Both the position numbers and the translations under genes were made by a program. This document shows, piece by piece, positions 3,099 through 29,317 of a stretch of DNA of 34,878 nt (positions are counted from its first letter, which is position 1; the number at the start of each line of letters is the position of its first letter). The notes under the pieces were generated by a model that saw only the letters and a list, made by a program, of their open reading frames with translations, was not told where the DNA came from and ran no database searches. The DNA comes from Bacteroidales bacterium. GTDB taxonomy: Bacteria; Bacteroidota; Bacteroidia; Bacteroidales; Dysgonomonadaceae. The stretch is taken from NCBI GenBank assembly GCA_012838585.1, contig DUPB01000063.1, positions 1-34,878 on the forward strand, in the 5' to 3' direction.

Positions 3099-3125
3099 GC
3101 TGCATCGTTCGATGCGGCTTTTTTT
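3099..3125 (+). terminator. Intrinsic terminator of the RRM gene
   Basis: An 8-bp stem with a GTTC loop (3099-3118) is followed by seven T residues (3119-3125). It begins 22 bp after the RRM stop codon. Confidence 0.9.
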
Positions 3126-3237
3126 GTATCTTCGCGGAGAAGAGTTTACGTTCGCGGACGGTAAAGGTGAAACCTTATCAACGATGAAAATAGGTAGATC
3201 GTTTGAACCGCGCGAAGTTTCAAAGTAAAGTAATCGT

Positions 3238-3939: not shown

Positions 3940-3949
3940 ATAGCGCGAG

Positions 3950-4609
3950 ATGATACGAGCGGAAAAAATTTACAAAAGTTTCGGTTCGCTTCAAGTGTTG
4001 AAGGGGATCGACCTGCAGGTGCAGAAGGGGGAGATCGTCTCTATCGTGGGGCCGAGCGGCGCGGGTAAGACCACCCTGCTCATGATCATGGGCACGTTGG
4101 AGAAGGCCGATTCGGGCAAGGTCATCATCGATGGTCACGAGTTAAGTAGCCTTGGCGAGAAGAAGCTGGCTGCCTTTCGCAACCAGAACATCGGCTTTGT
4201 CTTCCAGTTTCACCAGTTGCTGCCCGAGTTCACCGCGCTGGAGAACGTGATGATCCCCGCGTTGATAGGTCGGGCGAAGCATGCCGATGCCGAGAAGCGG
4301 GCAGAGGAGCTGCTTCGGCTCATGGGACTCATGGAGCGCGCGGAACACAAGCCGGCCGAGCTGTCGGGTGGGGAAAAGCAGCGGGTGGCGGTGGCCCGTG
4401 CCCTGGTCAACGACCCGCTGGTGGTGCTCGCCGACGAGCCCTCGGGGAGCCTCGATTCCGACAACAAGGAGGAGCTGCACCGGCTTTTCTTCGAGCTGCG
4501 TGACAAGCTCGATCAAACGTTTATCATCGTTACGCACGATGAGCAACTGGCGTCGATTACCGACCGAACCATCCACATGTTGGATGGTGAAATCGTAACA
4601 TACAATTAA
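3950..4609 (+). CDS. lolD: LolD-type ABC transporter ATP-binding protein
   Basis: This 219-aa ABC ATPase contains Walker [10 protein letters not shown] (34-42), the signature LSGGEKQR (138-145), Walker [13 protein letters not shown] (from 158; Glu163) and the H-loop His196. The short form and the sequence around the Q-loop ([18 protein letters not shown]) are typical of the LolD/MacB/FtsE group, which powers movement of lipoproteins or other substrates out of the inner membrane without crossing it. No LolC/E permease is in the window, so its partner must be encoded elsewhere and the lolD label is an inference from similarity. It sits between tsaB (10 bp) and the S9 peptidase gene (11 bp) in an evident operon. 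A lipoprotein-release ATPase would suit a genome with this many lipoproteins. Confidence 0.85.
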
Positions 4610-4620
4610 ACACGATACCT

Positions 4621-6723
4621 ATGAAGTTTAAAATCCTACTTATGGCAATGGCAATAGGCGGAAGCTTGCTCGCTTGCGGCGAGGCTTCCAACGAGAGAGC
4701 GGGGGCGAACGAGCCCGATGAACTGATCGGTAAGGCATCGCCCGTGATCGAGAACGGCGTGATGACTCCCGAAGTACTGTACAGCTTCGGGCGCGTGGGC
4801 GACCTGTCGGTATCGCCCGACCGCTCACGCATCGTCTACCAGGTGACCTACGTGAGTATTCCCCATAACCGCACCAACTCCGAGTTGTTCATGATGAATA
4901 GCGATGGCTCGGATAAAAAGCAGCTTACCGCGTCGAACTTCCGGGAGAGCCAACCCCGCTGGATTGAGAACGGCGAGCGGATCGCCTTTCTTAGCAACGA
5001 GAGCGGCTCGTCACAACTCTGGACTATGAAGCCCGATGGTAGCGACAAGAAGCAGCTGTCGGACGTGGAAGGGGGGATGGATGGCTTTATCTTCTCGTCC
5101 GACGAGACGAAGCTGCTGTTCGTGATGAGCGTGAAGACGGTGCAGACCGCCCCGGATAGGTACGCCGACCTGCCTGAAGCGTCAGGACGAATCGTGGACG
5201 ACCTGATGTATAAGCATTGGGATCACTGGGTGGAGAGCGTTCCCCATCCTTTCGTGGCTGATTTGTCTGACGGGAAGCTCGTCAACGTCCGCGACATCAT
5301 GGAGGGTGAGCCCTATGAATCGCCCATGGTTCCCTTTGGGGGAATCGAGCAGCTGGCATGGAGCCCCGACGGCAAGACTATCGCTTACACCTGCCGCAAG
5401 AAGACGGGGAAGGAGTACGCGGAGTCGACCAATTCCGATATCTACTTTTACGATCTCGAGAGCGGCGAGACACGTAATATGACCGAAGGGATGATGGGGT
5501 ACGACGTGAACCCGAGCTTTTCCCCCGACGGTGCGAAATTAGCCTGGCTGAGCATGGAGCGGGATGGCTACGAAGCGGACAAGAACCGGCTTTTCGTGAT
5601 GGAGCTGGCAACAGGCCAGAAGAGCTACGTTACCGAGTCGTTCGACTACAACGCCGAGGCCATCGAGTGGGGTGACGACAACCGCACCCTCTACATGGTC
5701 TCGCCCTACCAGGGGACCAACCGCCTCTTCTCGGTCGACGCGGTCAGCCGTGAGATCAAGGAGATCGCTAGCGGAAAGCATGACTACCTTTCGGTGGACC
5801 TGATCGATGGCGCGTTAATCGCCAAGCGGCAGTCGATGTCTCAACCTGCCGAGATCTACCGGGTGGACCTGACCTCGGGCGAGGTGACCGAGTTATCGTT
5901 CGAGAACAAGCCTATTTTAGACCAGCTCACCATGGGCGAGGTGGAGGAGCGGTGGATCGCTACCACCGATGGGAAGCAGATGCTCACCTGGGTGATCTAC
6001 CCGCCCCATTTTGATGCTTCTAAAAAATATCCTGCCCTGCTCTATTGTCAGGGAGGGCCACAAAACACGTTGGGTCAGTTTTGGTCCTACCGCTGGAATT
6101 TTCAGATAATGGCGGCCAACGGCTATATCGTGGTGGCTCCCAACCGCCGCGGGGTACCTGGCTTCGGGCAGGAGTGGCTGGAGCAGATTAGTGGCGATTA
6201 CGGGGGGCAAAACATGAGAGATTACCTGTCGGCCATCGACGCGTTGGCCAAGGAGCCCTACGTGGATGAGGAGCGATTAGGGTGTACCGGTGCCAGCTAC
6301 GGCGGTTTTTCCGTCTTCTGGCTCGCCGGGAATCATAACAAGCGCTTCAAGGCTTTCTTCGCGCACGCGGGTATCTTCAATCAGGAGGCGCAATACCTGG
6401 AGACCGAGGAGATGTTCTTCGCCAACTGGGATATAGGTGGACCCTACTGGGACAAGTCGAACGCGACGGCGCAACGCAGCTACCAAAATTCGCCGCACCG
6501 CTTCGTGGATAGGTGGGATACCCCCATCATGATATCACATGGGGAGTACGACTACCGCATCTTAGCCTCGCAGGGTATGATGGCGTTTAACGCCGCCCAG
6601 TTGAGGGGTATCCCGTCGCGGCTGCTCATCTTCCCCGACGAGAACCACTGGATACTCAAGCCGCAGAACGGTATCCTCTTCCAGCGTGAGTTCTTCCGCT
6701 GGTTCGACGAGTGGTTGAAGTAA
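4621..6723 (+). CDS. S9-family (prolyl oligopeptidase-type) peptidase, lipoprotein
   Basis: The protein has 700 aa and a lipoprotein signal with lipobox LLAC (lipidated Cys19), so it should be anchored in an envelope membrane facing the periplasm or surface. Residues about 60-420 form a WD40-like/TolB-type beta-propeller with repeated blades ending in 'DGSDKKQLT'-type strands. The C-terminal alpha/beta-hydrolase domain has the nucleophile in GASYGG (Ser559), acid Asp644 (GEYDYR) and His676 (DENHW), a complete triad. Family knowledge suggests a dipeptidyl or acylaminoacyl peptidase working on oligopeptides that enter the propeller pore. The DPP-IV/DPP5/acylaminoacyl subtype cannot be assigned by eye. 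It is the last gene of the tsaB operon. The ~180 bp after it hold no clear terminator, only three GGTTGAA words and the tRNA promoter. Confidence 0.93.
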   Translation: MKFKILLMAMAIGGSLLACGEASNERAGANEPDELIGKASPVIENGVMTPEVLYSFGRVGDLSVSPDRSRIVYQVTYVSIPHNRTNSELFMMNSDGSDKKQLTASNFRESQPRWIENGERIAFLSNESGSSQLWTMKPDGSDKKQLSDVEGGMDGFIFSSDETKLLFVMSVKTVQTAPDRYADLPEASGRIVDDLMYKHWDHWVESVPHPFVADLSDGKLVNVRDIMEGEPYESPMVPFGGIEQLAWSPDGKTIAYTCRKKTGKEYAESTNSDIYFYDLESGETRNMTEGMMGYDVNPSFSPDGAKLAWLSMERDGYEADKNRLFVMELATGQKSYVTESFDYNAEAIEWGDDNRTLYMVSPYQGTNRLFSVDAVSREIKEIASGKHDYLSVDLIDGALIAKRQSMSQPAEIYRVDLTSGEVTELSFENKPILDQLTMGEVEERWIATTDGKQMLTWVIYPPHFDASKKYPALLYCQGGPQNTLGQFWSYRWNFQIMAANGYIVVAPNRRGVPGFGQEWLEQISGDYGGQNMRDYLSAIDALAKEPYVDEERLGCTGASYGGFSVFWLAGNHNKRFKAFFAHAGIFNQEAQYLETEEMFFANWDIGGPYWDKSNATAQRSYQNSPHRFVDRWDTPIMISHGEYDYRILASQGMMAFNAAQLRGIPSRLLIFPDENHWILKPQNGILFQREFFRWFDEWLK

Positions 6724-9318: not shown

Positions 9319-10023
9319 TTACCAGCTAAAAGCGAAGCCCGCGTTTACGTTTAGGGCTGGCTCACCATCAATCAGCAGAACATCGGGAGCTAGTACAAAG
9401 TTGAACCTTTTATGTGCAGCAAACCGTAAAGTGGCTCCTAAGTTGAAGGCAAGTAAGCCATCGCCTGTTGTTTTTTTACCATCGTACGTGACAGAGGGCA
9501 CCGCGTACCCCACAAGTGCTCTATAGGTAGCTTTGATGTTGAGCATGTTTATGAGATGAGAGTATGAGGGGCCAACCAGTAAATAGCCTGTTCCATAACT
9601 CACCTCATCGACGAGGTAGGAGTTGGCGCCCCATTTGAGCGTGCCTCCCAATCCCCTTTGGGTAGCCAGGTTGAGCTCAAGTAAGTTTAACCCCAGTCCC
9701 ACGTGATCGAAATCAGTTGCCACCCCCAGGTTCAAGCTGAAGTAACTGTACCTGTTTTTACCTTCAGCAGGGGATTTTCCAACTTTTACTGCTTTTGTTG
9801 CTTCCGTTTCCTTTGTTATTTTTGAAACGTCCTCTATAGATAAAACGAAAACATTTCCATCCGCTGTTTCAATGGTAATGCTTTGACCTGGTACCTGTTC
9901 GGTAATATTTCCTTTAATTACTGAACCATTTTTCAAGTGAACCACATCTCGTGTAACGTTTTGAGAAAACAGGAAAACGCTGGAGAAAATCATGAATACC
10001 GTGAAAATAAGAACTTTTCTCAT
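9319..10023 (-). CDS. Predicted outer-membrane beta-barrel protein, function unknown
   Basis: The frame is open back to 10101, but I chose the ATG at 10023 (234 aa). It begins a clean signal peptide (MRKVLIFTVFMIFSSVFLFSQ), and the promoter -7 box at 10091-10098 would put the longer start before the transcription start. Residues about 25-75 form a small beta-rich domain typical of Bacteroidetes (DVVHLKNGSVIKGNI ... GNVFVLSIEDVSKITKE). The rest alternates hydrophobic and polar residues with frequent Gly and aromatics and ends in Phe-Ser-Trp, as barrel proteins ending in an aromatic do. There are eight or so likely strands. I do not recognise a named family. Three phased direct repeats upstream suggest control by an activator that may also serve the LRR-peptidase genes. 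Confidence 0.8.
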   Translation of the reverse strand: MRKVLIFTVFMIFSSVFLFSQNVTRDVVHLKNGSVIKGNITEQVPGQSITIETADGNVFVLSIEDVSKITKETEATKAVKVGKSPAEGKNRYSYFSLNLGVATDFDHVGLGLNLLELNLATQRGLGGTLKWGANSYLVDEVSYGTGYLLVGPSYSHLINMLNIKATYRALVGYAVPSVTYDGKKTTGDGLLAFNLGATLRFAAHKRFNFVLAPDVLLIDGEPALNVNAGFAFSW

Positions 10024-10090
10024 ACGAATTATAGTTAGTGAGTTATACATGGGCTGTTTGATAACAGTCAGCCTTTTATTAGATATAACG

Positions 10091-10098
10091 CAAATATA
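10091..10098 (-). promoter_or_regulatory. -7 box of the barrel-protein gene
   Basis: TATATTTG on the minus strand, followed by CG, is a full match to TAnnTTTG. I see no TTTG at -33 spacing, so this promoter may need an activator. Transcription would start near 10084, giving a leader of about 60 nt. Confidence 0.7.
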
Positions 10099-10141
10099 CA
10101 CTTTTTCAGGAAAAATAAAAAAAAGTTTCGACTTTTCTCAC

Positions 10142-10239: not shown

Positions 10240-13200
10240 TTACTTGTTGCACGGATCGGGACGATGACACCCGCCTCCCGGCTCGTGGGCATACCAATAC
10301 CCTTTGCCGTGGTCTATGTCCACGACATATTTTTTTTGGTCATAATCCCACTTGTATTTGTATCGAATATCGTAGCTGAGGGTTTCGATATTATCAAAAA
10401 TAGCGGGTCTTACCTCACAAATGTTGTTGGAGCTACAGTATAATGTTCTCAATGCCGTACACCCGCTCACGTTCAAGGAGGTGAGCTGGTTGTCATAGCA
10501 GTCTAAAAGTTCTAACGCCGTAAACCCGCTCATGTTTAGTGAGGTGAGTTGGTTGCTGTAGCAGTCTAATTGTCTCAACGCTTTAGACCCGCCTACATTT
10601 ATCGAGGTGAGCTGGTTCCGGTTACAGTATAATATTTCCAATGCCGTGCACCCGCTTATATTTAACGAGGTGAGCTTGTTTTTGGAACATTTTAATTCTT
10701 TCAATGTTGTACATCCGCTCACATTTAACGAAGTGAGATTTTCGCCGGAACAATCAAAACTCCTCAACGCGATACATCCACTTGCATCTAACGAGGTGAG
10801 CAGTGAACTCTGCTTGATGGTTAGTAACTCCAGCAACTTCAACCCGCTTACATTTAAGGAGGTAAGTTTGTTTTCACCACAATAAAGAGAGTTTAACTTC
10901 GTGCAGTTTTGTACACTTAACGAGGTGAGCTGGTTCCCGTTGCAGTATAATTCTTGTAAGGCGGTACATCCGCTCACGTTTAGTGAGGTGAGTCGATTAC
11001 TTGAGCAGGATAAGTCTTTCAACGCGGTACACCCGTTCACGTTTAACGAGGTGAGCTGGTTATTGTAGCAGGATAACCTTTGCAATGCCTTGAACCCGCT
11101 CACGTCTAACGAGGTGATCTGGTTATTGTAGCAGGATAAATTTTGCAATGCCTTGAACCCGCTTACATCTAACGAGGTGATTTTGTTATTGTGGCAGGAT
11201 AAGCTTTGCAATGCCGTACACCCGCTTACGTTTAAGGAGCTGATTTGGTTTCTGTGGCAGGATAAGCTTTGCAATGCCGTACATCCACTTACGTTTAAGG
11301 AGGTGAGCTGGTTCTGCTCGCAGTAGGATAATTCTTTCAAAGCCGTACACCCGCTCACGTCTAACGATGTAAACCGGTTATTATCGCACCTTAAAGATTC
11401 CAGCGCCGTACATCCATTTACATTTAACGAGGTAAGTTGATTGTCGTTACACCATAAAACTCCCAATGTTGTACAATCGCTCGCGTCTAACGAGGTGAGC
11501 TGATTGTTAGCGCAATACAAATAAGCTACTGCACCGTGAATCCGAATGGTTTGGGCACCCAAGGTGTAAGTTTTTTTGCTACCTGACGTCTCCTCTCCCG
11601 CGTCTTTTTTGCCGTTGTTGTTTAGGTCTATCCACGCCTGAGAGAGATCGGATGTAATTATCTGTAACTCTATGGTTTCTCCCACGGTTTTGGCTGTGGT
11701 AAGGACAATCCCTTTCCCGGGTTGCGATTTCGTCACCAATCCATAATAATCAAACTCTTCAATATTTTCATCCCCCCAAACGTTTCTCAGTGAGAATTCC
11801 AAATAGAGGTCTTTATCGCCGGGTACTTTGAAAAAATCGGATAACGAAGGGTCAAACTGCTTCCCGGACGAGTCTTCAAAATGGCTCCCCTTTACCGTGT
11901 ACACCCCTTTGGCAGGACAGGTGAATGAAGCAGAATAATACTTAAACGTTCCGCCGCCAATATCCATATCGAGCTGCATGGATGACGGATTGTCGTCGGC
12001 GTTATACACCCTCATCTCCACGTTTAATTGCGTGGGCGAGTAAAGGGTGTCGTTGTCTGCGTTTTGTTCGCCATACCCGGATTTTCCCCAACCTATTCCC
12101 GTGAATTCTTCGTGATCGTATTTCGGGAAAACCTTACGCCCTTTTCCGTAGGCCTTCATCGTGAAGGTCAAGTCAGCACCCGTGGGACACATTTTGTTTT
12201 GGGTGTCTGCCGCCGGTATTGCCATGGTTTGCAGTACGGGGTTGGCCAACATGGGCTTATCGGCATAAATAATGTAAATAGCATCGCCCTGTACCCAAGC
12301 CTCGTTAAATTTCACCTGCTTCAGGTATTGGTCCCATACTATCCATTTGTATATGTCGCCAGTCATCCCTTGCGGGTCGTGAACCAAGAATGAAGTGGCA
12401 CCGGCGTTTTCTCCTTTTCGGTACCCGATAACGTACAGCACGTGCGTCCCGTGATTAAGGATTACCGGGTGCCTTTTACGGAGAAGCTTTACCATTTCGA
12501 CTGCCGCGCTTTTCGTCCTGCGGAACGATGAACAGGAGATATTAACATCCCCGCCAATCCTTTCCCGTATGGCTTTGACGATACTTTTGGTGTCGTAACT
12601 CCAGAAGGTGATGAAGTTGGTGCCCCATCCCTCGTCAAGCGTCGTGTGCCCGACCTCTTTCACCAGCTTGAATAGGCTGTTGTCTTGTTTAGGATCCAAA
12701 TTCTTGTACGAGCGCACGAACATCATCGCGCAGGCGGCCCAGCAGGTTTCGCTTACTTGTTCCACGTAGGGTGCCTTCATGGTAACGGTTTCCGTTTCGA
12801 AATTATAATCGGGAGTTGTGGCGATGGCGAGGTAACCGTACTTGCCACCTTGCGATGAGGTGCCCGATTTAGTGGGGGTAAAAGGTGCATTGGCTTGTAA
12901 AGAGAGGGTTAGTTTCCCCGTTGCTTTGTCGTAGGTAAAATCGACCTTCTTGTAAATTCGCCCATTTGCCGCTTCAACCGCTTGCCGGTCTGTCGTGAAC
13001 AGGCTGCAATCGATATCTTCTTCCGCGTTGAGCCCTTTATCCACCACCGTTTCCACGTCGATGGTGTAAGCTGACGTCATTTTCGAGAAATCGAGGATGA
13101 TCTGTTTCCCCAAATTGAACATCTCCATCTCTTCACGTTCGGTGATGCTAATCTCCTCGTGAGGGGCATCCTTGTTTTTTGCCGCCTTTATGGAGATTTG

Positions 13201-13893
13201 AAGGTTAGAAGGGAATTTCAATACCATATCTTTCCCCTTGTAGCTTCCTGTCGCCGTTTCACCTGTCGCTTCGATTACTTCGCTTGTATTCCCGTCGGTT
13301 TTCTTCGCCACCCCATCGGCCTCGTAAAAAATCTGCCCCAATCCAAAGTATGACTTGTCGCTGATGAACGTGCCACTGTAAAGATCGTGCAGTTCGCCCT
13401 CTTTCATCTTGCCGGAGTAGAGTAGCACCGCTTTTACCCGGGTGTTGTCATCCAGTTGAATGTCCATTGGCGCGTAGAGGGTAAACCTGTCGCCGCTGCC
13501 GCTGATGATCATCGAGAAGGTTTGTGTATAGGTGTCGGTTTCCGATTTCAGCGTCACGCTGAAGTTGTCGTTGTTTTGCCCGCTGATGGTCAATACCTCG
13601 TCCTCGTACTTCGTCCCGGGTGGGTCATCCTCTTCGAAGTTCGATTTTTTCATGGTCTGGTCGTCGGCCAGGTATTTTCCCTCGATATTGGGCGGGTTTG
13701 TGCCGTCGTGGATGGGCATGCCCAGTCCCTTGATGGCTTTCATCAGGTCTGGTGAGACCAAGGCCTCAATCTTCTGTTTTAAAAGGGCCTCCTTTGGCTC
13801 TTTGGGATCATCGGGGTCAACAATCACCTCCCCGGGACAGGAGGTAAGCAACAGAATAGATACCGCCAACGAAAGGTAGTTAAACTTTTTCAT
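10240..13893 (-). CDS. LRR lipoprotein with embedded papain-like cysteine peptidase
   Basis: The 1217-aa protein has a lipoprotein signal (lipobox LTSC, Cys19) and an Asp/Pro/Lys-rich stalk. Residues about 35-350 form an N-terminal domain (KYLADDQTMKK region) shared with the next paralogue and the 1670-aa protein. Residues about 370-530 form a papain-fold peptidase: Gln379, Cys384 in ETCWAAC, His484 in NHGTHVLYVIGY and Asp506 in VHDP, the arrangement of C39/AvrRpt2-like (clan CA) peptidases. Next comes the module WIDLNNNGKKDAGE (754-767), resembling a Ca-binding DxNxNGxxD loop. About 17 LRRs of 21 residues follow (consensus CxxNQLTSLNVSGCTALxxL). The last ~50 residues are a C-terminal domain shared with two paralogues, ending HRPDPCNK. 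It is probably exposed at the cell surface. The peptidase substrate is unknown; a target bound by the LRRs is an inference. Confidence 0.9.
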   Translation of the reverse strand: MKKFNYLSLAVSILLLTSCPGEVIVDPDDPKEPKEALLKQKIEALVSPDLMKAIKGLGMPIHDGTNPPNIEGKYLADDQTMKKSNFEEDDPPGTKYEDEVLTISGQNNDNFSVTLKSETDTYTQTFSMIISGSGDRFTLYAPMDIQLDDNTRVKAVLLYSGKMKEGELHDLYSGTFISDKSYFGLGQIFYEADGVAKKTDGNTSEVIEATGETATGSYKGKDMVLKFPSNLQISIKAAKNKDAPHEEISITEREEMEMFNLGKQIILDFSKMTSAYTIDVETVVDKGLNAEEDIDCSLFTTDRQAVEAANGRIYKKVDFTYDKATGKLTLSLQANAPFTPTKSGTSSQGGKYGYLAIATTPDYNFETETVTMKAPYVEQVSETCWAACAMMFVRSYKNLDPKQDNSLFKLVKEVGHTTLDEGWGTNFITFWSYDTKSIVKAIRERIGGDVNISCSSFRRTKSAAVEMVKLLRKRHPVILNHGTHVLYVIGYRKGENAGATSFLVHDPQGMTGDIYKWIVWDQYLKQVKFNEAWVQGDAIYIIYADKPMLANPVLQTMAIPAADTQNKMCPTGADLTFTMKAYGKGRKVFPKYDHEEFTGIGWGKSGYGEQNADNDTLYSPTQLNVEMRVYNADDNPSSMQLDMDIGGGTFKYYSASFTCPAKGVYTVKGSHFEDSSGKQFDPSLSDFFKVPGDKDLYLEFSLRNVWGDENIEEFDYYGLVTKSQPGKGIVLTTAKTVGETIELQIITSDLSQAWIDLNNNGKKDAGEETSGSKKTYTLGAQTIRIHGAVAYLYCANNQLTSLDASDCTTLGVLWCNDNQLTSLNVNGCTALESLRCDNNRFTSLDVSGCTALKELSYCEQNQLTSLNVSGCTALQSLSCHRNQISSLNVSGCTALQSLSCHNNKITSLDVSGFKALQNLSCYNNQITSLDVSGFKALQRLSCYNNQLTSLNVNGCTALKDLSCSSNRLTSLNVSGCTALQELYCNGNQLTSLSVQNCTKLNSLYCGENKLTSLNVSGLKLLELLTIKQSSLLTSLDASGCIALRSFDCSGENLTSLNVSGCTTLKELKCSKNKLTSLNISGCTALEILYCNRNQLTSINVGGSKALRQLDCYSNQLTSLNMSGFTALELLDCYDNQLTSLNVSGCTALRTLYCSSNNICEVRPAIFDNIETLSYDIRYKYKWDYDQKKYVVDIDHGKGYWYAHEPGGGCHRPDPCNK
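10430..11520 (-). repeat. 63-bp tandem DNA repeats encoding 21-residue LRRs
   Basis: About 17 copies of a 63-bp unit, in frame. Some neighbours are nearly identical at DNA level (for instance around 11090-11220), which implies recent unequal crossing-over or conversion rather than only protein-level conservation. Because 63 is a multiple of three, copy-number change keeps the frame. Confidence 0.85.
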
Positions 13894-13946
13894 AGGTAGG
13901 ATATATTTAGCGTGTCTCTAATCTAAATTCTCTATAAGCCTTGCTA

Positions 13947-13954
13947 CAAAATTA
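13947..13954 (-). promoter_or_regulatory. -7 box of the 1217-aa LRR-peptidase gene
   Basis: TAATTTTG on the minus strand matches TAnnTTTG, 53 bp before the ATG. No -33 TTTG is seen. The 194-bp gap behind it contains CCTG words at 13987 and 14007, exactly 20 bp apart, followed by AAATA and TTGAG. This is a weak version of the phased arrays near 10142 and 17293. Confidence 0.5.
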
Positions 13955-14087
13955 TTCTTTTTTTTCTTTTTCGCCTCATCCTTGCCCCTGTTTTTTAATT
14001 CAAATACCTGTACACCGCTACTTGAGTTTGAAAACCTTTGTCACGGTTTAAAACTTCTCAAATTAAAAACTCTCAAAGATGTGTCTA

Positions 14088-17000
14088 TTAATTGTTGCAC
14101 GGATTGGGACGATGACACCCGCCTTCCGGCTCGTGGGCGTACCAATATCCTTTGCCGCGGTCTTCTTTTACGACATATTTCTGTTGTTTAGAATCCCACT
14201 GGTATCTGTATCGAATATCATACGAGAGATACGTAATGCTGTCAAAAATAGCGGGTCTTACCTCACACATGTTGTTGTTGTCACAGTATAATTTTTTTAA
14301 TGCCGTGAACTCGTTTACATTTAGCGAGGTGAGCAGGTTGTTGGAGCAGTCTAATTCTTGTAATGCCGTGCACCCGCTCACGTTTAACGAGGCGAGTTGG
14401 TTCCGATCGCAGTATAACCATTTCAATGCCGTGCACCCGCTCACGTTTAACGAGGTAAGCTTTCCTTGGGAATATCTAACGGTTGCTAACCCTGTACAAC
14501 CACTTGCATCTAACGAAACGAGCGGGTTGTTATAGAAGGAGAAATGTCGTAATGATATCAACCCACTCACGTTTAACGAGGAGAGCTGATTGTCGTTGCA
14601 GAAAAAATGACTCAGTGCCGTACATCCGCTCACGTTTAACGAGGTAAGCTGGTTGTTCGCGCAGTTTAAATAATCCAAAGCGGTGTATCCGCTTACATTT
14701 AGCGAGGTAAGCTGGTTGTCGCTGCAGTGTAAACCCTCCAATGCCGTGCACCCGCTCACGTTTAACGTTGACGAGGTAAGTAGGTTGTTTTGACAGTGTA
14801 ACCTTTTTAACGTGTTGCAACTGCTTGCATCTAACGAGGTGAGTTGGTTGTTTTGGCAAGTCAGGGCAGTTACCGGACCGTAAATCCGGATGGTTTGCGC
14901 GCCTAAGGTATATGGTTTTCCGTCTCTAATGTTTTCTCCCTCGTCTCTTTGGCCATTGTTGTTTAGGTCTATCCACGTATCATTGTGAACGGATGTAGCT
15001 ATAGATAACTCTATGGTTTCCCCTACGGCCTTGGCGGTGGTAAGGGAGATAGATTTTACAGTTTTAACTACCAGCCCATGATAATCGAACTCTTCAATGT
15101 TCCCCTTTCCCCAAACGTTTTTCAGTGCAAACTCCAAGCGAAGGTTTTTGTCGCCGGGTACTTTGAAAAAATCGACCAACGAAGGGTCAAACTGCTTGGC
15201 TGACGTGTCTTTAAAATCGCTTCCCTTTACCGTGTAAAACCCTTTGGCCGGACAAGTAAATTCAGCAGAATAGTGTTTAAACGCGCCGCCGCCGAGGTCC
15301 ATGCTTAGCAGCATGGATGTTGCCTTATCGTCGGCATTATACACTTTCATTTCCACGTTTAATTTCGTGGGCGAGTAAAGGGTGTCGTTCTTGGTGTTTT
15401 CCGCGTCATACCCTAATTTTCCCCAGCCGATTCCCGTGAACTCTTTTTGATCGTATTTCGGGAATACCTTACGTCCTTTCCCGTAGGCTTGCATCGTGAA
15501 CGTTAAGTTGGTGCCATCGGGAGACATTTTATTTTGGGTATCTGCTGCCGGTATGGCCATAGTTTGCAGTACAGGATTATCTAACATGGGTTTATCGGCA
15601 TAAAGAATGTAAATGGCATCGCCCCGAAACCAAGCCTCGTTAAAATTCACCTGCTTCAAGTATTGATCCCACACTATCCATTTGTACATGTCGCCGGTCA
15701 TCCCTTGCGGGTCGTGGACCAGGAATGAAGTGGTACTGGCGTTTTCTCCTTTTCGGTACCCGATAACGTACAGCACGTGCGTCCCGTGATTAAGGATTAC
15801 CGGGTGTTTTTTACGGAGAAGCTTTACCATTTCGGTCGCCGCGCTTTTTGTCCTGCGGAACGATGACGAGGAGATGGTAATACCCCCGCCAATCCTTTCT
15901 TGTATGGCTTTTACGATACTTCCGGTATCATAACTCGAAAAGGTGATGAAGTTTGTATTCCACCCTTCGTCAAGCGTGGAGTGTCCAATCTCTTTCACGA
16001 GCCTGAACAGGCTATTGTCTTGATCGGCAGGCAAATCCTTGTACGACCGCACGAACATCACGGCGCAAGCTGCCCAACAGGTGCTGCCTGCCTGCTCCAT
16101 GTAGGGCGCCTTCATGGTAACAGTTTCCGTTTCGAAATTATAATCGGGAGTCAGGGAAATGGCGAGGTAACCGTACTTGCCACTTTCTGGCGTCGTGCCC
16201 GATCTCGTGGGGTTAAAAGGGGCATTGGCTTGTAAAGAGAGGGTTAGTTTCCCCGTTGTCTTGTTGTAGGAAAAATCAACCTTCTTGTAAATTCGCCCTT
16301 TTGCCGCTTCAACAGCTTGCCGGTCGGTCGTGAATAGGCTGCAATCGATATCCTCTTCCGCGTTAAGGCCTTTGTCAACCACCGTTTCCACGTCTATAGT
16401 GTAAGCCGATCTCATTTTCGAGAAATCGAGTATAATATGTTTCCCCAAATTGAACATCTCCATCTCCTCGCGTTCGGTAATGGTGATTTCCTCATGGGGA
16501 GCATCCTGGTTTTTTGCCGCCTTTATAGAAATTTGAAGGTTAGAGCGGAATTTCATTACCATATCTTTTCCCTTGTAGCTTCCTGTCGCCGTTTCACCTG
16601 TCGCTTCGATTACTTCGCTTGTATTCCCGTCGGTTTTCTTCGCCACCCCGTCGGCCTCGTAAAAAACCTGCCCCAATCCAAAATATGCCTTGTCGCTGAT
16701 GAACGTGCCGCTGTAGAGATCGTGCAGTTCCCCTTCTTTTATCTTGCCGGAGTAGAGCAAGACGGCTTTTACCCGGGTGTTGTCGTCAATGGGAATGTCG
16801 ATCGGCGCGTACAGGGTGAACCTATCGCCGTTGCCACTGATGACCATCGAAAAGGTTTGTGAATAGGAGGCGGTTTCCGATTTCAGCGTCACGGTGAAGT
16901 TGTCGTTGTTTTGCCCGCTGATGGTTAGCACCTCGTCCTCGTACTTCGTCCCGGGAGGGTCGTCCTCTTCCAAGTTCGTTTTTTTCATCGTCTGGTCATC

Positions 17001-17225
17001 TGCCAGGTATTTTCCCTCGATATTGGGCGGGTTTGTGCCGTCGTGAATGGGCATGCCCATTCCCTTGATGGCTTTCATCAGGTCGGGTGAAACCAAGGCC
17101 TCTATCTTCTGTTTCAAAAGGGCCTCCTTGGGGTCTTTGGGGTCATCGGGGTCAATGACCTCCCCGGGACAGGCGGTAAGCAGCAGGATGGATACCGCTA
17201 AGACAAGGTAACTGAATTTTTTCAT
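14088..17225 (-). CDS. LRR lipoprotein with papain-like cysteine peptidase, tandem paralogue
   Basis: The start is the ATG at 17225 (1045 aa), which opens a lipoprotein signal (MKKFSYLVLAVS...LTAC). A TTG 36 bp upstream would bury the signal and lies before the predicted transcription start. The domain order equals that of the 1217-aa neighbour: N-terminal domain, peptidase (Gln378, Cys383 in STCWAAC, His483, Asp505), WIDLNNNGQRDEGE module (from 751), LRRs, and a C-terminal domain ending HRPNPCNN. Here there are only about 9 LRRs, and one carries a two-residue insertion (LTSSTLNVSGC). The N-terminal 750 residues of the two proteins are far more alike than an old duplication would leave, so the duplication is recent or homogenised by conversion. 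It diverges from the sensor-kinase operon across 205 bp containing a phased repeat array. Confidence 0.9.
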   Translation of the reverse strand: MKKFSYLVLAVSILLLTACPGEVIDPDDPKDPKEALLKQKIEALVSPDLMKAIKGMGMPIHDGTNPPNIEGKYLADDQTMKKTNLEEDDPPGTKYEDEVLTISGQNNDNFTVTLKSETASYSQTFSMVISGNGDRFTLYAPIDIPIDDNTRVKAVLLYSGKIKEGELHDLYSGTFISDKAYFGLGQVFYEADGVAKKTDGNTSEVIEATGETATGSYKGKDMVMKFRSNLQISIKAAKNQDAPHEEITITEREEMEMFNLGKHIILDFSKMRSAYTIDVETVVDKGLNAEEDIDCSLFTTDRQAVEAAKGRIYKKVDFSYNKTTGKLTLSLQANAPFNPTRSGTTPESGKYGYLAISLTPDYNFETETVTMKAPYMEQAGSTCWAACAVMFVRSYKDLPADQDNSLFRLVKEIGHSTLDEGWNTNFITFSSYDTGSIVKAIQERIGGGITISSSSFRRTKSAATEMVKLLRKKHPVILNHGTHVLYVIGYRKGENASTTSFLVHDPQGMTGDMYKWIVWDQYLKQVNFNEAWFRGDAIYILYADKPMLDNPVLQTMAIPAADTQNKMSPDGTNLTFTMQAYGKGRKVFPKYDQKEFTGIGWGKLGYDAENTKNDTLYSPTKLNVEMKVYNADDKATSMLLSMDLGGGAFKHYSAEFTCPAKGFYTVKGSDFKDTSAKQFDPSLVDFFKVPGDKNLRLEFALKNVWGKGNIEEFDYHGLVVKTVKSISLTTAKAVGETIELSIATSVHNDTWIDLNNNGQRDEGENIRDGKPYTLGAQTIRIYGPVTALTCQNNQLTSLDASSCNTLKRLHCQNNLLTSSTLNVSGCTALEGLHCSDNQLTSLNVSGYTALDYLNCANNQLTSLNVSGCTALSHFFCNDNQLSSLNVSGLISLRHFSFYNNPLVSLDASGCTGLATVRYSQGKLTSLNVSGCTALKWLYCDRNQLASLNVSGCTALQELDCSNNLLTSLNVNEFTALKKLYCDNNNMCEVRPAIFDSITYLSYDIRYRYQWDSKQQKYVVKEDRGKGYWYAHEPEGGCHRPNPCNN

Positions 17226-17339: not shown

Positions 17340-17430
17340 CAGAATTAAATGAAAATATTTTGATGATAACTGCCGTTTAATTATTAATTTTATAGCGTGC
17401 TTGTTTTCACGGTAACGAACAGTGGTTGAA

Positions 17431-20391
17431 ATGCCTGCCCACGATAAACAGGTGTGCCTCGTTTGGCTCACTTGGCTAACTTGCCTTGTTTGTCTCGCCT
17501 TTCTACCTTATAAGGCGGGTGCACAGCATTTGCCTTTCATTAACTACAACACGCACAATGGTTTGCCACAGATACAGGTGCAGAGGTTGTACCAGGATAG
17601 TAAAGGGTATATTTGGGTAGGCACGAAAGGGGGTTTGGCAAAATTTAACGGTTCCACTTTCCAACAGTTTCTTCACAACGAATATATATACGGGATAGGA
17701 GAAACCTTGGACGGGGAGCTCTATTTCATAACGCTCTATAATGTATACAAGCAAGAAAGAGGAACAATGAAACATGTGGCCTCGCTTAACGAACAGATGC
17801 ATCTTATCACGGGCAGGGATAGCTATTGGGTCTACACGAACAGCGAAATGAAAGAGTTTAGGGCAGACACGCTCTACCAGACCCTACAAAGCGGCATCGG
17901 CTTTGAAGGAACATTCACGGGCATCACGTATGATCGTGAAAACGACCGCCTTTTGTTTTCCACCTCGACAAATAGGGTTTATGCTCTAAAGGACAGAGAG
18001 ATAAAAGAATTGTCTGCATTTGATTCGAAAGTAACGGTTTCTTCGTTTTCAAACGGCTATATCTATTACCACCTCCTCCTCTCGGCAACGGAGAATATCT
18101 ACATCGATCCCGAAAGCCGGGAAGTGTTATTACGGTACAAGGATGATACGCGTATTCACGACGTTGAGATTCACAAGCTTCCCGTCCGACAGCATCTGTT
18201 ATACAAGTTTAATATAAGGCAATACCTGTTGCTTGATAGCGCGACAAACAGTGTGCAACCCATTGAGTTACCGTTCGAGGAAGAGGTCTATCCCTTTATC
18301 ATAGACAAAGACGACAACTGTTGGCTGGGAACCGACAATGGATTATATCAATTGAACAACAAGTCGTTCCGCGCCTACCCGCGCACGTTCATGAACAATT
18401 TTTGGACGATGATACGGGGTAAGGATGGTAACTATTATGGCGGGCAATACAAGGTCGGGTTGTTCCGGTTGGATCTGGCCAGGCAAGAAAAGCGGGAGAT
18501 CATGGTGAAGGGAGCGGGTGGCACGTATAATAAGGATTTCTATTACGGTTCGTCGATGGACAGGCAAGGGAACCTCTATTTTCCCACGCATTTTGGGTTG
18601 GTAAAATATGACTACAAGAAAGCGAAATGTTTTGACATCGGCATTTCGATGATATCAAGATACGCCCCGTACGAAGATAAGATTCTATTTGGCCATGGTC
18701 TTGGCATCGGTTTCATTGATGGAGACGAGAAAATTGAGGCTTTCACGGACAGCACGGGTGAAATTCTTTCCTTTTACCCGTCGGCCCTGGAGTTCACATC
18801 CAACGGCAATGTCTGGATTGGGAACCGCTCGGGATTGGTGCTTTTCGACAAGGCGAGCAAGCAACTGAAGCACGTGTCGAAGTTGCATTACGACGTATAC
18901 CCTAACCAACAGTTGATTTCGATGGCAAAAGACCGCGAAGGTAACGTATGGATGGGTGGAAACTCTGAGCTTTGGCTTTACAACGGGCAAAAAGATAGTT
19001 TCACGCGTGTCGGGAAAGATTACTTCAACACGAAAATTCTTAGCCTTATCTCTCCCGACTCCACGCTGTTGCTGGTCGGAACATCGCGTGAGGTATTCGC
19101 GATGAGGTTAGACAAGTTTTATCGGGATGGAACGATTGAATTTAAAATGTTCAATCACCGCAACGGGTTTTTCAGTGAAGAGGTGGCGCAAAACGGGTTC
19201 CTTCTGGATGGCGATAGGGTGTTCATCCCTTCGTCCACCACCACCAGTGAGTTGTATTACAAGGGGATATCGTTTACGCCAGATTACTTTAACCTGTTTG
19301 TAACTTCCATCAACGAAACCGGGTTGAGCGATGAGGAGCAGGTTGGACTTCAGCCATTTTATGCCGGAAAGGGCAATAACAGGCTGACGATTCATTACGA
19401 GACAGTGGGGTTCGGGTTGCCCACCTATGCTGTTTTCAAGTACAAGCTGGAGGGAAAAGAGAAGGATTGGAACGAGTGGACACAAGCCGGTAGCGCACAT
19501 TACTCGGGCTTAGGTTCTGGAAAGTACACTTTTCGTGTCGTCGCTAAAAATGGGGATAAGCTCGCACCCTACGAAGAGAAAGAGAGTTCGGTGGAGATCA
19601 TTATCGACCTGCCTTTCTTTAAAGAACCCGATTTCTTCAAGTATGCCTTTTTCGCTTTCGCCCTGCTGACGCTTATCGTGGCGTTCTTTATATGGCGGAA
19701 TTATAAAAACCGAATGGCAGTTCAGGCGCGTGAACGACACATAAAACTCTTGGAGGTGGCCACCCTGCAAGCGCAATTAAGCCCGCACTTCATTTTTAAC
19801 TTTTTGTCGTCCATTCAAAGCCTTATCGGTCAAAAAAAGCCTGAAATTGCCAACGATTACTTGATGAAGTTCTCCCGTTTGATTCGCGCCTACATGGAAT
19901 CATCTATTAAGTCGTCGATGTTGCTTGGGCGGTCGATTTTAGACAATGAAAACAGCATCAACGAGGAGATTGATATGCTGAAGACGTACGTGGAGTTGGA
20001 GAAAATGAAGTACCCCGACGGGAAAATTACATTCGAGGTTGAGTTGGAGTCCGATTCGCTATTGGATTGCTCCATTCCACCGATGCTCTTGCAGCCATTC
20101 GTGGAAAACGCCATCAAACATGGCATCCTGCCCAAAGAGGGGGCGGGGAACGTCACTGTTAGGTTTGAGCAGGATGGTCCCGCGCTGGTTTGTAAAATCA
20201 TGGACGATGGCATTGGACGGGAACGGTCGGCTCAAATCAGGGAAAAATCCCTTAAGCCACACAAATCGAGGGGCCTGCAGTTGATCATGCAGCGTGTACA
20301 GCTGCTTAACGAGCTCAATTATACCATAAACATCGATTTCGAAGACCCCGAGTCGGGAGGCACAGTTGTTATCATCACCATTCAACATTAA
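17431..20391 (+). CDS. Propeller-type LytS-like sensor histidine kinase
   Basis: From the ATG at 17431 (986 aa; a GTG 9 bp upstream is the alternative) the protein begins with a signal/anchor (LVWLTWLTCLVCLAFL). A large periplasmic region of two-component-regulator propeller repeats follows (for example SKGYIWVGTKGGLAKFNG, DNCWLGTDNGLYQL, GNVWIGNRSGLVLF), then a Y_Y_Y domain (about 640-720) and one transmembrane segment (738-758). The cytoplasmic part is a His_kinase (PF06580-type) domain with QLSPHFIFN (phospho-acceptor His786) and an ATPase domain with the N-box Asn893 (PFVENAIKHG) and the G-box DDGIGR. It lacks the receiver and AraC domains of hybrid kinases, so it signals to the response regulator encoded next. 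Such propellers usually sense polysaccharide fragments or envelope ligands. The divergent LRR-peptidase gene is a likely target. Confidence 0.93.
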   Translation: MPAHDKQVCLVWLTWLTCLVCLAFLPYKAGAQHLPFINYNTHNGLPQIQVQRLYQDSKGYIWVGTKGGLAKFNGSTFQQFLHNEYIYGIGETLDGELYFITLYNVYKQERGTMKHVASLNEQMHLITGRDSYWVYTNSEMKEFRADTLYQTLQSGIGFEGTFTGITYDRENDRLLFSTSTNRVYALKDREIKELSAFDSKVTVSSFSNGYIYYHLLLSATENIYIDPESREVLLRYKDDTRIHDVEIHKLPVRQHLLYKFNIRQYLLLDSATNSVQPIELPFEEEVYPFIIDKDDNCWLGTDNGLYQLNNKSFRAYPRTFMNNFWTMIRGKDGNYYGGQYKVGLFRLDLARQEKREIMVKGAGGTYNKDFYYGSSMDRQGNLYFPTHFGLVKYDYKKAKCFDIGISMISRYAPYEDKILFGHGLGIGFIDGDEKIEAFTDSTGEILSFYPSALEFTSNGNVWIGNRSGLVLFDKASKQLKHVSKLHYDVYPNQQLISMAKDREGNVWMGGNSELWLYNGQKDSFTRVGKDYFNTKILSLISPDSTLLLVGTSREVFAMRLDKFYRDGTIEFKMFNHRNGFFSEEVAQNGFLLDGDRVFIPSSTTTSELYYKGISFTPDYFNLFVTSINETGLSDEEQVGLQPFYAGKGNNRLTIHYETVGFGLPTYAVFKYKLEGKEKDWNEWTQAGSAHYSGLGSGKYTFRVVAKNGDKLAPYEEKESSVEIIIDLPFFKEPDFFKYAFFAFALLTLIVAFFIWRNYKNRMAVQARERHIKLLEVATLQAQLSPHFIFNFLSSIQSLIGQKKPEIANDYLMKFSRLIRAYMESSIKSSMLLGRSILDNENSINEEIDMLKTYVELEKMKYPDGKITFEVELESDSLLDCSIPPMLLQPFVENAIKHGILPKEGAGNVTVRFEQDGPALVCKIMDDGIGRERSAQIREKSLKPHKSRGLQLIMQRVQLLNELNYTINIDFEDPESGGTVVIITIQH

Positions 20392-20464: not shown

Positions 20465-21304
20465 ATGGAGAAATACAGCGCGCTTATCGTGGAGGATGTA
20501 AAAGAGACCTCCGACTATATTTATCAGCGAGTTTCGATGCTTTGCCCTGCCATCGCGAAAATCGACCAGGCACTAACCTTAAGCGAGGCCGAAGAGTTCA
20601 TCGAAAGCTACCGTTACGACATCGTTTTTCTCGATATCCAGATGCAGACCGGCACCAGTTTCGATTTGTTGAAACGGTTGTCGGATAGGGGGGCTATCGA
20701 CTTCGAAATCATTTTTATTACCGGTGAAAGCGACAAGGAGCACGTGTTGAGGGCTATCAAGTTTTCGGCCATCGACTTTTTGTATAAGCCATTGGATGAC
20801 GGTGAGCTCGTGGTGGCGGTGAACAGGGCGCTGGGTAAACGTGAAACTCAGGATCTCAGCCACCAGATTAAGTTGCTGTTACAGCGGATGGACGAGCGGC
20901 CCGCGGTGAAATCCAACAAAATAGCGTTTCACCTACATAGTGGAATATTGCAAATGATACCCGTTGATGAGCTAAAATACCTGGAGGCCGATGGCGTGGT
21001 ATCGAAAGTGTACCTGAAAAGTGGAGAAACCATCACGGTGAATAGGAATTTAGGGTATTACAAGGACCTCCTCATGCTTGAACACGACTTTATCCCGCTC
21101 AGCAACCGCATTTTGCTTAACAGGGAGTACGTGAAGCGATACAACCACCAGACGCTTACAATTACCCTTACCGACAATACTGAGCTGCCGGTATCGCGAC
21201 GAAGGGGCAAAGAACTGAAAGAGATATTAAGTGAAAGGAGAGGGTTAAGCGCTGTTTTTTCAACTTTTATCTCAATGCACGGCGGCAAGAACAAACGGGG
21301 GTAA
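20465..21304 (+). CDS. LytTR-family response regulator
   Basis: The 279-aa regulator has a receiver domain (residues about 5-125) with the acidic pair VEDVKE near the start, phospho-acceptor Asp57 in VFLDIQM, and the conserved Lys in DFLYKPLD. After a linker, a LytTR DNA-binding domain occupies about 155-260 (DELKYLEADGVVSKVYLKSG ... FIPLSNRILLNREYVKRY). LytTR proteins bind pairs of ~9-bp direct repeats about 21 bp apart. The gene follows the kinase gene by 73 bp and is surely its partner. The C-terminal 20 residues (after GKELKEIL) are an uncharacterised basic tail. Target promoters probably include the divergent LRR-peptidase gene with its phased ACTGGT repeats. Confidence 0.94.
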   Translation: MEKYSALIVEDVKETSDYIYQRVSMLCPAIAKIDQALTLSEAEEFIESYRYDIVFLDIQMQTGTSFDLLKRLSDRGAIDFEIIFITGESDKEHVLRAIKFSAIDFLYKPLDDGELVVAVNRALGKRETQDLSHQIKLLLQRMDERPAVKSNKIAFHLHSGILQMIPVDELKYLEADGVVSKVYLKSGETITVNRNLGYYKDLLMLEHDFIPLSNRILLNREYVKRYNHQTLTITLTDNTELPVSRRRGKELKEILSERRGLSAVFSTFISMHGGKNKRG

Positions 21305-27300: not shown

Positions 27301-29317
27301 TAACCGTGAGGTATGGTACACCACACTCGTTCAGGTCCATCCCGTCGGTGGAACGACAGAAGTCAATGATGGACTCGTTCTCGAACCAGAAGACAAAATG
27401 CCCGAATAGGGAAGTGTAAGCGTCGGCCTTACCCAGGAAGTCCATGCCGTTAAGCACGAACTTCGCCGCTTTCGATCCCAGCTCGCCAACTCCCTTGCCA
27501 AGCTCGCACTCGACCATTGTCCCGCTTCCTAAAAGCCCTATCATTCGGTCGGCGAACGCCTTCATGGCCTCTCCGATACCTTTGGCCTTATACAAGTCGA
27601 AAATGTACTTAATGTAGCCGTAGCTCTGCTCGGCGAACGCCTTCACGCACGCCGTTCCCACTGGCCATCCCAGGCCGTCGGCCAGGTAGAGCGTGGGCGC
27701 CACAATGTTTAGGAAAGAGCCAGATGTCCACTCGCCCAGGCCCGAATTGGCCGATATATAGTAGTTGGTGTTGGTTTTCATGGTGTACTTCACTTCCTCC
27801 GGTGGCTGGCACAAGCCCGCCTTCAATAGGAGGATATCGGTTATACCGAAGTTTGCCGCCTTGGAGACACCCAGGTCCTCTCGTAATACCTCTAGGCGTT
27901 GGCCATTCTCTTTTTCTTCCTCTATGATGATGCGATAGGCGGGTCCCGTACCGTTGCTGCCGATGATGATGCTGCTTCCCTCGTTGGTAATCACCAAGGG
28001 CGGCATAGAGACGTCTTTTTTATCGTCATCGGCCCGGGTTTGGGGTACTGATTGACTAACCCCTTGTAAGGTCGATTGGGTGAGCGGTTGGTGTGTCCCC
28101 ACCGGGGTCGATCGAGTTACCTCTCGTGGGGGTGTTTGGGTGAACGGTTGTGAAGTCGTCCCTGAAGTCTCTTGTGTTGCCCGCGTATCTTTAGTGGTTG
28201 CCCCCTCTGGCGTAACTATCATCGATTCGAACAGCTCGCCATACAGTGATATCAGCCGCGTGTTATCTTCGGAGAGTAGATCGGCCTCCTCCTTGATCAA
28301 CCGTTCCACCTCGGCCAGCACCGGGGCGAACTTGGGCGTTTTTTTCAGCAGCTCTTCCGCTCGGGTCCACTGCTCCTTGTCCAGTTGCGAACGGGCGCCG
28401 GTGATCATCATGAACATGCCAATGGCGCTGCTCTCGGCGCTTAGCTCTATCTCCTCCTCGCCCACGTTCAGGTAGGCGAGCATTAGCACCTTGTTATTAT
28501 CATCCGCCATGAACACCGTCTGCTGCAGTTGTTCCGACTCGTCGATACCCACCACGAAGTCGCCCTTCTTGGTCATCTTCTGCTTATCGGAGAAGGAGAC
28601 CACGCTGTATTTCTCGAAGTTCACCTTGGCACCCTGGGGCAGCTTCACGCTCCCCGCCTTCTCGCCCACTTCAGGCTCCGGCTTTTCAGGTTCGAGCGGG
28701 CCGTCGAACTTTTTGGCCATGCCGTCCTGCTCGTGGTATATCATCGCCGCGTCTTGGAAGCCCTCCTCGATCCAGAGCGTGGCGAAATGCACGTTGGTGA
28801 GTCCATTCTCCGTCATCGTTCCGGAGTAGACGTCGATTATCCGGTAGGCGTTGCCCTCACTTGACAACCCGGTTTTACCGTTGTAAAGGGTGAACTTGTT
28901 TCCTTCGCCGCTGATGATCATGTTGTAGGAGTCGGGCATGTCATCATCCTCGTTCTCCACCAGCAGGTTCACCGAGAAGCGCTCGTTGTCCTGGTTCTTA
29001 AGCGTCCACTTCTCACGGACGTACTTGGTGCCGACAGGGCTACAGTCCTCGAAGTTTTTGCACACCTTCAGTGTGATGTCGTCCGCCAGGTAGGATCCCT
29101 CGATGTTGGGCGGTTGAACGCCGTCGTGGATGGGCATGCCGAACTTTTTGAGCGTTGCTACCGCCTCCAAAGTGACCGCTGTCTCTAGCTTCTCATTGAG
29201 TATCTCTGCCCTCTTTTCCTCCTCCGGTACCTCTATCTCCTCGGGGGGGCAGCCATGGAAGAGTATGGCTGTAAGTAGCAGTACAACCATCCCGTAAACA
29301 TGTTTTCTCTTTTTCAT
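24305..29317 (-). CDS. Giant lipoprotein with three WIDLNGN-LRR blocks
   Basis: The 1670-aa protein has a lipoprotein signal (lipobox FHGC, Cys23). Residues about 30-200 form the same N-terminal domain as in the LRR-peptidase proteins (GMPIHDGVQPPNIEGSYLADD-type segment). The peptidase domain is missing. In its place are a helical region, a Thr/Gln/Pro-rich linker (about 375-430, SQPFTQTPPREVTRS) and a region of unknown fold (about 450-680). Then come three blocks, each a WIDLNGN-type module (Trp696, Trp944, Trp1225) followed by LRRs. The first two end in a cap with a conserved Lys-Asn-Trp; the last ends in a Lys-Gly-Trp-Arg-Val version. The LRRs are more diverse than in the peptidase paralogues. 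An IS relic begins 23 bp upstream of the start, so the native promoter may be displaced. It is a likely surface adhesin or binding protein; the ligand is unknown. Confidence 0.88.
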   Translation of the reverse strand: MKKRKHVYGMVVLLLTAILFHGCPPEEIEVPEEEKRAEILNEKLETAVTLEAVATLKKFGMPIHDGVQPPNIEGSYLADDITLKVCKNFEDCSPVGTKYVREKWTLKNQDNERFSVNLLVENEDDDMPDSYNMIISGEGNKFTLYNGKTGLSSEGNAYRIIDVYSGTMTENGLTNVHFATLWIEEGFQDAAMIYHEQDGMAKKFDGPLEPEKPEPEVGEKAGSVKLPQGAKVNFEKYSVVSFSDKQKMTKKGDFVVGIDESEQLQQTVFMADDNNKVLMLAYLNVGEEEIELSAESSAIGMFMMITGARSQLDKEQWTRAEELLKKTPKFAPVLAEVERLIKEEADLLSEDNTRLISLYGELFESMIVTPEGATTKDTRATQETSGTTSQPFTQTPPREVTRSTPVGTHQPLTQSTLQGVSQSVPQTRADDDKKDVSMPPLVITNEGSSIIIGSNGTGPAYRIIIEEEKENGQRLEVLREDLGVSKAANFGITDILLLKAGLCQPPEEVKYTMKTNTNYYISANSGLGEWTSGSFLNIVAPTLYLADGLGWPVGTACVKAFAEQSYGYIKYIFDLYKAKGIGEAMKAFADRMIGLLGSGTMVECELGKGVGELGSKAAKFVLNGMDFLGKADAYTSLFGHFVFWFENESIIDFCRSTDGMDLNECGVPYLTVTTPLSIGTRVRLKCDRHACVYPAWIDLNGNDKKDPGEELEDGYNELNIRSVEMKIHGDFAGLYFEEMELTTLQLNPNSEVTLISTDKLKIFLGGECEQLKSLFTGKNLEKVDVRKCKGLKTFQTRSKLTELDLTGCEALEKLDCYKNELHTLDLQGLKALKEVDCYSNRLTKVQVGDNDSLVKVDLRHNRLDSMNIAGIVKNLPKRAKKDGAIIKLDGNTAIPSGNDYTSANLKNWKMTPAAGKITFTTSKQAGSTIRLKVTAQETNPDDVWVDLNGNGELDEGESFSAYGTAQEFKVARDTVTIYGGLLKVDCSNNEITWLEVNGCPTLQELRCNKNRIETLSIHIYIEKLKLLDCSDNLLKDLYVSSSELTEVHCKNNPLTELEITGRKKLQVLDLTNCASLTMLKCSENNLKTLTLTGCNALKTLNCYNNSLTALNVSGKTNLSKLDCRNNLLDASAITKVITDLPQRAEGDKAFANFEGNQAVPTAQDAKTAKTKNWTIIPMPEGEGPDNPDDPDNPLPNEDVIVFTIDKLDGTVVLINSLPGTEKNIWIDWNDSGIQDVGEGLFFNSVGTYPYHWMMAGIPSVKSLKIHGASFITGLMIMVEKGVNIVSIDIRKGMALREFAHVGSLETLHVKGNTVLQDITVHNSQLTSLDLTGCTALRSVSVSNNGGLTSLNLTGCTALESLRVTDNNLLTSIKLTDCKALNVFDIDKINEMVSLDLTDCAALSKLNCSHCKIDYLNASGLKKLETITFYHYDDTAPVQNSIGVFNLSNCTSLENIFFDDIQLASLDVSGCTALKYLDIRNNYLTDLDLSTCNQLESLLCGDNELNSLDLSTCNQLSVLGCGHNELTSLDLSNCPKLEYVSCDSNRISSLKLSGYKTLKWLSCEDNKLTSLNLSEYTALEKVFCVNNQLTSLLVSGNDREEFDIACWSNRIHGNGMEALINSLPDVKEGVLGIIDLSDSNEANVCTKKQVQTAKSKGWRVIDEKQNDYPGS

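Follow-up and report, generated by a model that had tools for sequence, protein, structure and literature searches.

Genes and domain architecture

The window analyzed here (contig C244, GenBank DUPB01000063.1, 34,878 nucleotides [nt]) belongs to the draft genome of a Bacteroidales bacterium of the family Dysgonomonadaceae (3.24 Mb, 278 contigs). It carries two tandem paralogous genes, W1 and W2, whose products join a lipoprotein signal, a predicted papain-like cysteine peptidase and a leucine-rich repeat (LRR) array and are 79% identical over their aligned part. The features are as follows.

10240..13893, minus strand: W1, 1,217 amino acids (aa); lipoprotein signal, barrel, ZU5-like domain, papain-like peptidase, beta domain, LRR array, Cys-containing tail
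13837..13893, minus strand: W1 signal peptide with lipobox Cys19
13282..13836, minus strand: W1 N-domain (residues 20-204), helices and an antiparallel barrel, lipocalin/avidin-like
12859..13281, minus strand: W1 ZU5-like domain (residues 205-345), delimited by alignments
12253..12807, minus strand: W1 papain-like peptidase (residues 363-547)
12757..12759, minus strand: W1 Gln379, oxyanion-hole position
12742..12744, minus strand: W1 Cys384, predicted nucleophile
12442..12444, minus strand: W1 His484
12376..12378, minus strand: W1 Asp506
11719..12252, minus strand: W1 beta domain (residues 548-725), which also aligns in distant relatives
10390..11535, minus strand: W1 LRR array (about residues 787-1168), about 17 units of 21 residues
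10243..10389, minus strand: W1 conserved tail of about 49 residues (...GKGYWYAHEPxGGCHxPxPCN)
14088..17225, minus strand: W2, 1,045 aa, order as in W1, shorter LRR array
15588..16142, minus strand: W2 papain-like peptidase (residues 362-546; Q378, C383, H483, D505)
14088..15055, minus strand: W2 residue 724 to stop (WIDLNNNG segment, LRRs, tail)

Both products have Cys19 after a hydrophobic LLLTS or LLLTA, a lipobox pattern; LPAM_1 matched weakly (E 0.1) in P0003, a congener homologue. Pfam LRR_4 matched the W1 and W2 arrays at E values of 1e-43 and 2.2e-16, respectively. The preliminary description had placed an intact peptidase between a lipid-anchored N-domain and an LRR array in two tandem paralogues, and the anchor signal, the arrays and the positions given for the four catalytic residues (379/384/484/506 and 378/383/483/505) are all as it stated; the ZU5-like and beta domains had been overlooked. 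NCBIfam matches of W1 and W2 to internalin J and SlrP were LRR driven and far under their cutoffs. PADLOC returned nothing for W1, W2 or a third LRR protein of the window (24305-29317). The C-terminal tail of W1 is common to other LRR proteins of the clade. One further LRR protein with this tail lies at 34249-34878 and is cut by the contig end, its start lying off the contig.

The ZU5-like part was matched weakly by a ZU5 hidden Markov model (3 of 13 members; best E value, 0.029), and in a Pfam scan of 16 peptidase-core members ZU5 appeared in one (E 0.19). No ankyrin or PIDD ZU5 chain was among the PDB matches of its profile; the only matches, chains of ribosomal protein L21 (best E value, 0.0027), were judged to be due to chance. 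HF[ST] is an alternative autoprocessing motif of ZU5 domains. For such autoprocessing domains, PMC3482391 gives a C-terminal CxH motif. A motif scan found neither CxH nor HF[ST] in any of the 13 ZU5-like sequences, W1 included.

The predicted peptidase domain

Conservation of the putative active site was evaluated in an alignment of 16 peptidase-core members, 10 of which are distant relatives without LRR hits. Gln, Cys and His were kept in all 16, and the fourth position was Asp or Asn in all 16 (Asn in four), in the same order as in papain; the 10 distant relatives retained every catalytic residue. In the structural model, Cys384 is the first residue of a predicted helix, His484 directly precedes a predicted strand and Asp506 directly follows one, and the predicted fold is of the papain type that characterizes clan CA. 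Predicted fold, residue conservation and the Asp/Asn exchange thus agree with the earlier proposal of an intact clan CA-type peptidase. The clustering of the active-site residues, for which a structure prediction had been suggested, was judged at the level of secondary-structure positions and fold match; the predicted positions are compatible with it.

Full-length W1 and W2 scored 16.7 and 18.2 bits against Peptidase_C70 (PF12385), at the position of the peptidase, versus a cutoff of 19, and trimmed W1 scored 19.2 bits, just above it; at E≤1, this family was matched by 11 of the 16 members. Peptidase_C39_2 (PF13529) was matched by 9 of the 16 at the same threshold, but full-length W1 and W2 gave no match to it at E≤1. 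The close member P0005 reached 19.9 bits versus a cutoff of 24, and the distant relatives L044, L046, L052 and L070 passed it. W1 and W2 have the Q/C/H/D pattern of C70 (the AvrRpt2 family) and differ from it by their lipid-anchored multidomain context. With C39_2 the W-type core shares the H.....GY...DP layout, but W1 and W2 have no ATP-binding cassette transporter domain. Membership of the core in C70 or C39, and of the ZU5-like part in ZU5, was considered and not assigned.

The peptidase profile found no meaningful PDB chain at E≤1 (three unrelated matches; best E value, 0.4), and NCBIfam gave only weak unrelated matches for the 16 members. When a three-domain model was compared using Foldseek, the top ranks were transglutaminases and arrestins with root mean square deviations of >20, and we dismissed these as matches of beta-sandwiches strung together. 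A UfSP chain followed at rank 49 (E 1.5e-4; probability, 1.00). UfSP and ZUFSP are eukaryotic deconjugases of ubiquitin or Ufm1, and the catalytic order of UfSP is Cys...Asp-Pro-His, unlike that of W1 and W2.

PF13529 itself was found at E≤0.001 in 36 of 101 family genomes and was absent from the genome of the window. Five of the large open frames with this domain had no LRR array by eye, two of them (L093 and L094) resembling C10-type proteins. In L093 (218-4330, on contig C75 of the congener G030), a C10-like protease is followed by about ten repeats that look similar by eye.

Probable exchange of the catalytic module in a congener

A tandem array in G030 combines PCPa and PCPb, which have the papain-type module, with genes of a second kind. 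One of the latter, MPc (L018/L041:5140-8445), has a barrel, a ZU5-like region, a module with an HExxH motif, LRRs and a W-type tail. Two further genes of this kind, MPa (L018:1-1158) and MPb (L019:3-1520), are represented by their 3' parts at contig starts. MPb and MPc independently show the module order of MPa.

The borders are sharp, as judged from ungapped 30-base counts. The barrel of MPc is 88.0% identical in DNA to that of W2 over nt 1-591, and identity then falls from 25/30 (nt 571-600) to 8/30 (nt 601-630); in the same two stretches, W1 and W2 agree in 29 and 30 of 30 bases. At the 3' border between MPa and W2, identity changes from 6/30 bases on the module side to 27/30 on the repeat side, and the final 968 bp of MPa are 95.0% identical to nt 2171-3138 of W2, which cover the WIDLNNNG segment, LRRs and tail. 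Upstream of this border MPa equals MPb in 58 of 63 residues; downstream, it equals W2 in 301 of 322 residues and MPb in 188 of 318. A near-identical recognition part therefore stands behind the papain-type module in one species and behind a different module in another. For some pairs of metallo-type and papain-type genes, BLASTP alignments continued past the 3' border for 40 to 75 residues on its upstream side. Three stretch pairs from this region gave z-scores of -0.4, -0.1 and 1.9 in a shuffle test, and the module interiors gave 0.3; because these values are low, we claim no relation between the two modules. Recombination is the probable cause of this mosaic of barrel, module and LRRs.

The HExxH-type module was matched in 9 of 199 relatives, with the matches in G194 confined to the ZU5-like part, and in the genome of the window it was not found. 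In nine of nine sequences, from frames chosen for an HExxH, this motif lines up together with a Glu further downstream, which suggests a gluzincin-type metallopeptidase.

Distribution of the peptidase module

The papain-type module is rare. Counting the genome of the window in every clade, it was present in 4 of 199 relatives, 3 of 101 family, 2 of 393 order and 5 of 395 phylum genomes. A scan of a species-genome collection yielded 114 pattern matches, of which 13 loci in ten genomes were confirmed; they belong to Bacteroidetes/Bacteroidota/Bacteroidales, Ignavibacteria, the Bacteroidetes/Chlorobi group, Pelotomaculum, Desulfamplus and Dehalococcoidia metagenome-assembled genomes. Since only one pattern was used, distant members were surely missed.

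Six close members are known: W1, W2, PCPa, PCPb, L042 and G025/L043. Pfam LRRs were found in W1, W2 and PCPa and not in G025/L043, the four so tested; by a pattern test only, PCPb and L042 have 11 units each and G025 has one match. Behind the beta domain, PCPa and G025 have a different segment in common, as seen by eye and in a DNA alignment up to nt 2319-2322, so that C-terminal regions come in two kinds or more. None of 14 distant proteins scanned had an LRR hit (four at E≤0.5, ten at E≤0.01); two of them, L044 and L070, are incomplete at contig ends, and G752 is one further, short hit outside this set. Judged by sequence, the core occurs beyond the phylum in proteins without LRR hits, and in this Bacteroidales clade it lies between a barrel and an LRR array. 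The search for this domain order elsewhere, recommended in the preliminary description, recovered LRR-bearing close members, along with core relatives without LRR hits and the HExxH exchange, both of which had been overlooked. Its impression that no named family has this order held up: none was found in Pfam and NCBIfam scans, and no description of the order barrel, peptidase, LRR was found among the titles and abstract openings listed from open-licence literature.

Function and alternative explanations

With a probability of roughly 0.6, we propose that W1 and W2 are lipid-anchored papain-type cysteine proteases, most likely exposed at the cell surface and aimed by their LRR arrays. The lipid and the barrel would hold the protein at the envelope, and the ZU5-like and beta domains would lie on either side of the catalytic domain and probably support it. 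In the catalytic domain, Cys384 would act as the nucleophile, His484 as the base and Asp506 as the orienting residue, with Gln379 in the oxyanion hole. The LRR solenoid, with its conserved tail, may pick the protein targets to be cut. In this clade, recombination at the two sharp borders, near residues 197 and 724, would replace the papain-type core by the metallopeptidase-type module. The sequences, their conservation, the predicted fold and the module borders are observed; proteolytic activity, surface location, target selection by the LRRs and recombination as the source of the mosaic are what we infer from them.

A wider proposal is more tentative, and we put the odds slightly against it: a combinatorial surface-protease system in which lipid anchor and barrel stay constant, LRR arrays are interchangeable and recombination within tandem arrays swaps unrelated catalytic cassettes (papain-type, or ZU5-like plus HExxH) between barrel and LRRs. 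A given specificity could then be rearmed with a different protease.

Several points weigh against these proposals. The protease role is read from sequence and predicted fold, the closeness of Cys, His and Asp from secondary structure and fold match, and surface exposure from the lipobox and domain types; the lipocalin/avidin-like match of the barrel is weak. The trait is dispensable, as the module occurs in only 3 of 101 family genomes, and a canonical array is not obligatory, as the C-terminal part of one of the six close members, G025/L043, gave no LRR hit. The clearest exchange site, the MPa junction, is only 191 bp away from where a contig of a draft assembly ends. Pfam and PDB searches at E≤1 gave nothing for the metallopeptidase-type module of MPc, so the label HExxH-type reflects motif conservation alone; because frames were chosen for this motif, only its position and surroundings count as evidence.

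Among the alternatives, the domain could be a releasing or maturing autopeptidase that cuts its own chain or that of its paralogue and sheds the LRR array, leaving foreign proteins alone. Its position between lipid anchor and array fits this reading, and a releasing-peptidase role has been proposed for papain-like and ZU5 domains of polymorphic toxins (PMC3482391). We nevertheless regard this as unlikely, given that the core also occurs in relatives without LRR hits (0 of 14, two of them truncated), with its complete residue set in the ten of these that were aligned, and that all 13 ZU5-like parts lack the autoprocessing motifs. The other serious alternative, a papain fold that performs a different reaction (acyl transfer, or that of a transglutaminase, amidase or isopeptidase/deconjugase) in place of general endopeptidase cleavage, is quite unlikely: the residue order Cys-His-Asp/Asn is that of papain and not of UfSP, and Z differences of 2 to 3 are too small to decide. 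An adhesin whose peptidase fold mainly binds or supports, with catalysis minor or lost, would suit a genome in which LRR proteins are common and the barrel-bearing one at 24305-29317 has no peptidase match, but it is very unlikely with Gln, Cys, His and Asp-or-Asn invariant and ratios of nonsynonymous to synonymous substitution of 0.10 to 0.34 in 10 of 15 pairs.

The proposed aimed protease has partial counterparts. Bacterial LRR arrays are familiar as adhesins or as parts of injected effectors; here, an apparently intact protease is joined to an LRR array at the envelope of an uncultured Bacteroidales lineage. If this is true, the natural swaps offer a ready test of whether targeting is set by the array alone when the chemistry of cutting differs. 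A similar mode of action is seen in T-Mac (TDE0362) of Treponema denticola, a lipoprotein in which a papain-fold protease is joined to binding domains, and for T-Mac and IdeS/Mac-1 the catalytic order Cys-His-Asp/Asn is reported in PMC11833123. We do not claim family membership: those proteins have immunoglobulin-like domains, a C-terminal protease and a host complement target (PMC11833123), whereas W1 and W2 have barrel, ZU5-like domain and LRRs. Polymorphic toxins and large bacterial surface proteins, as described in PMC3482391, share the adjacency of ZU5 and papain-like domains in exported proteins and the idea of cassette exchange. They differ in that the peptidase of W1 and W2 is central and the C terminus is an LRR array with tail; Pfam and NCBIfam scans showed no toxin domain at the C terminus, and neither RHS repeats nor an export module were found.

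Barrel proteins and neighboring genes

Outside W1 and W2, the following features were recorded.

28697..29251, minus strand: barrel domain at the start of a 1,670-aa LRR protein (24305-29317), 39 to 41% identical to the W1/W2 barrel
17422..20391, plus strand: Reg_prop/Y_Y_Y/His_kinase sensor, divergent from W2, possible regulator
20465..21304, plus strand: LytTR response regulator
9319..10101, minus strand: 260-aa protein downstream of W1

The barrel was found in 3 of 39 genus members and in 7 of 247 phylum genomes including that of the window, the other six having it in open frames of 231 to 298 aa. The 1,670-aa protein had no peptidase match in the Pfam scan, and its middle region, about residues 210-700, was assigned to no family. 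It is 98.7% identical in G030, though the peptidase domains of both species are only 80 to 92% identical. In the genome of the window, the barrel also forms the C terminus of a protein on contig C52, whose N-terminal part shows caspase-like SHG...GAC motifs by eye. The gene next to it at that locus (L027:347-3298 and 3336-5330, minus strand) encodes a protease of the astacin type (Pfam Astacin, E 8.7e-34) that also contains Big_2 repeats. L024 and L025 (contigs C6 and C27) encode lipoprotein-like products with collagen-like Gly-x-y stretches, W-type LRRs and a further C-terminal part.

In L042, the W-type gene is likewise flanked by divergently oriented orthologues of the kinase and the LytTR regulator (79.5 and 82.4% identical), and on contig C96 of G030 the pair is close to, without adjoining, a partial barrel at the contig end; the G025/L043 stretch has no such pair. 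The pair may regulate W-type genes. In L067 (G030:C96, 2959-5860), two separate open frames (502 and 429 aa) make up the orthologue of the sensor kinase, so that either the gene is disrupted or the assembly is wrong. An orthologue of the 260-aa protein adjoins the mixed array of G030 (82.8% identity over 203 aa). A scan of the neighbors for an immunity gene (three downstream, two divergent) gave PIG-L, a GH43-like protein, a Lepto_7-type N terminus (below cutoff), the kinase and the regulator; immunity proteins are diverse. At 32212-34179 (minus strand), two abutting frames, 33679-34179 and 32212-33606, differ in reading frame and may be parts of a single disrupted gene or reflect a gap in the annotation.
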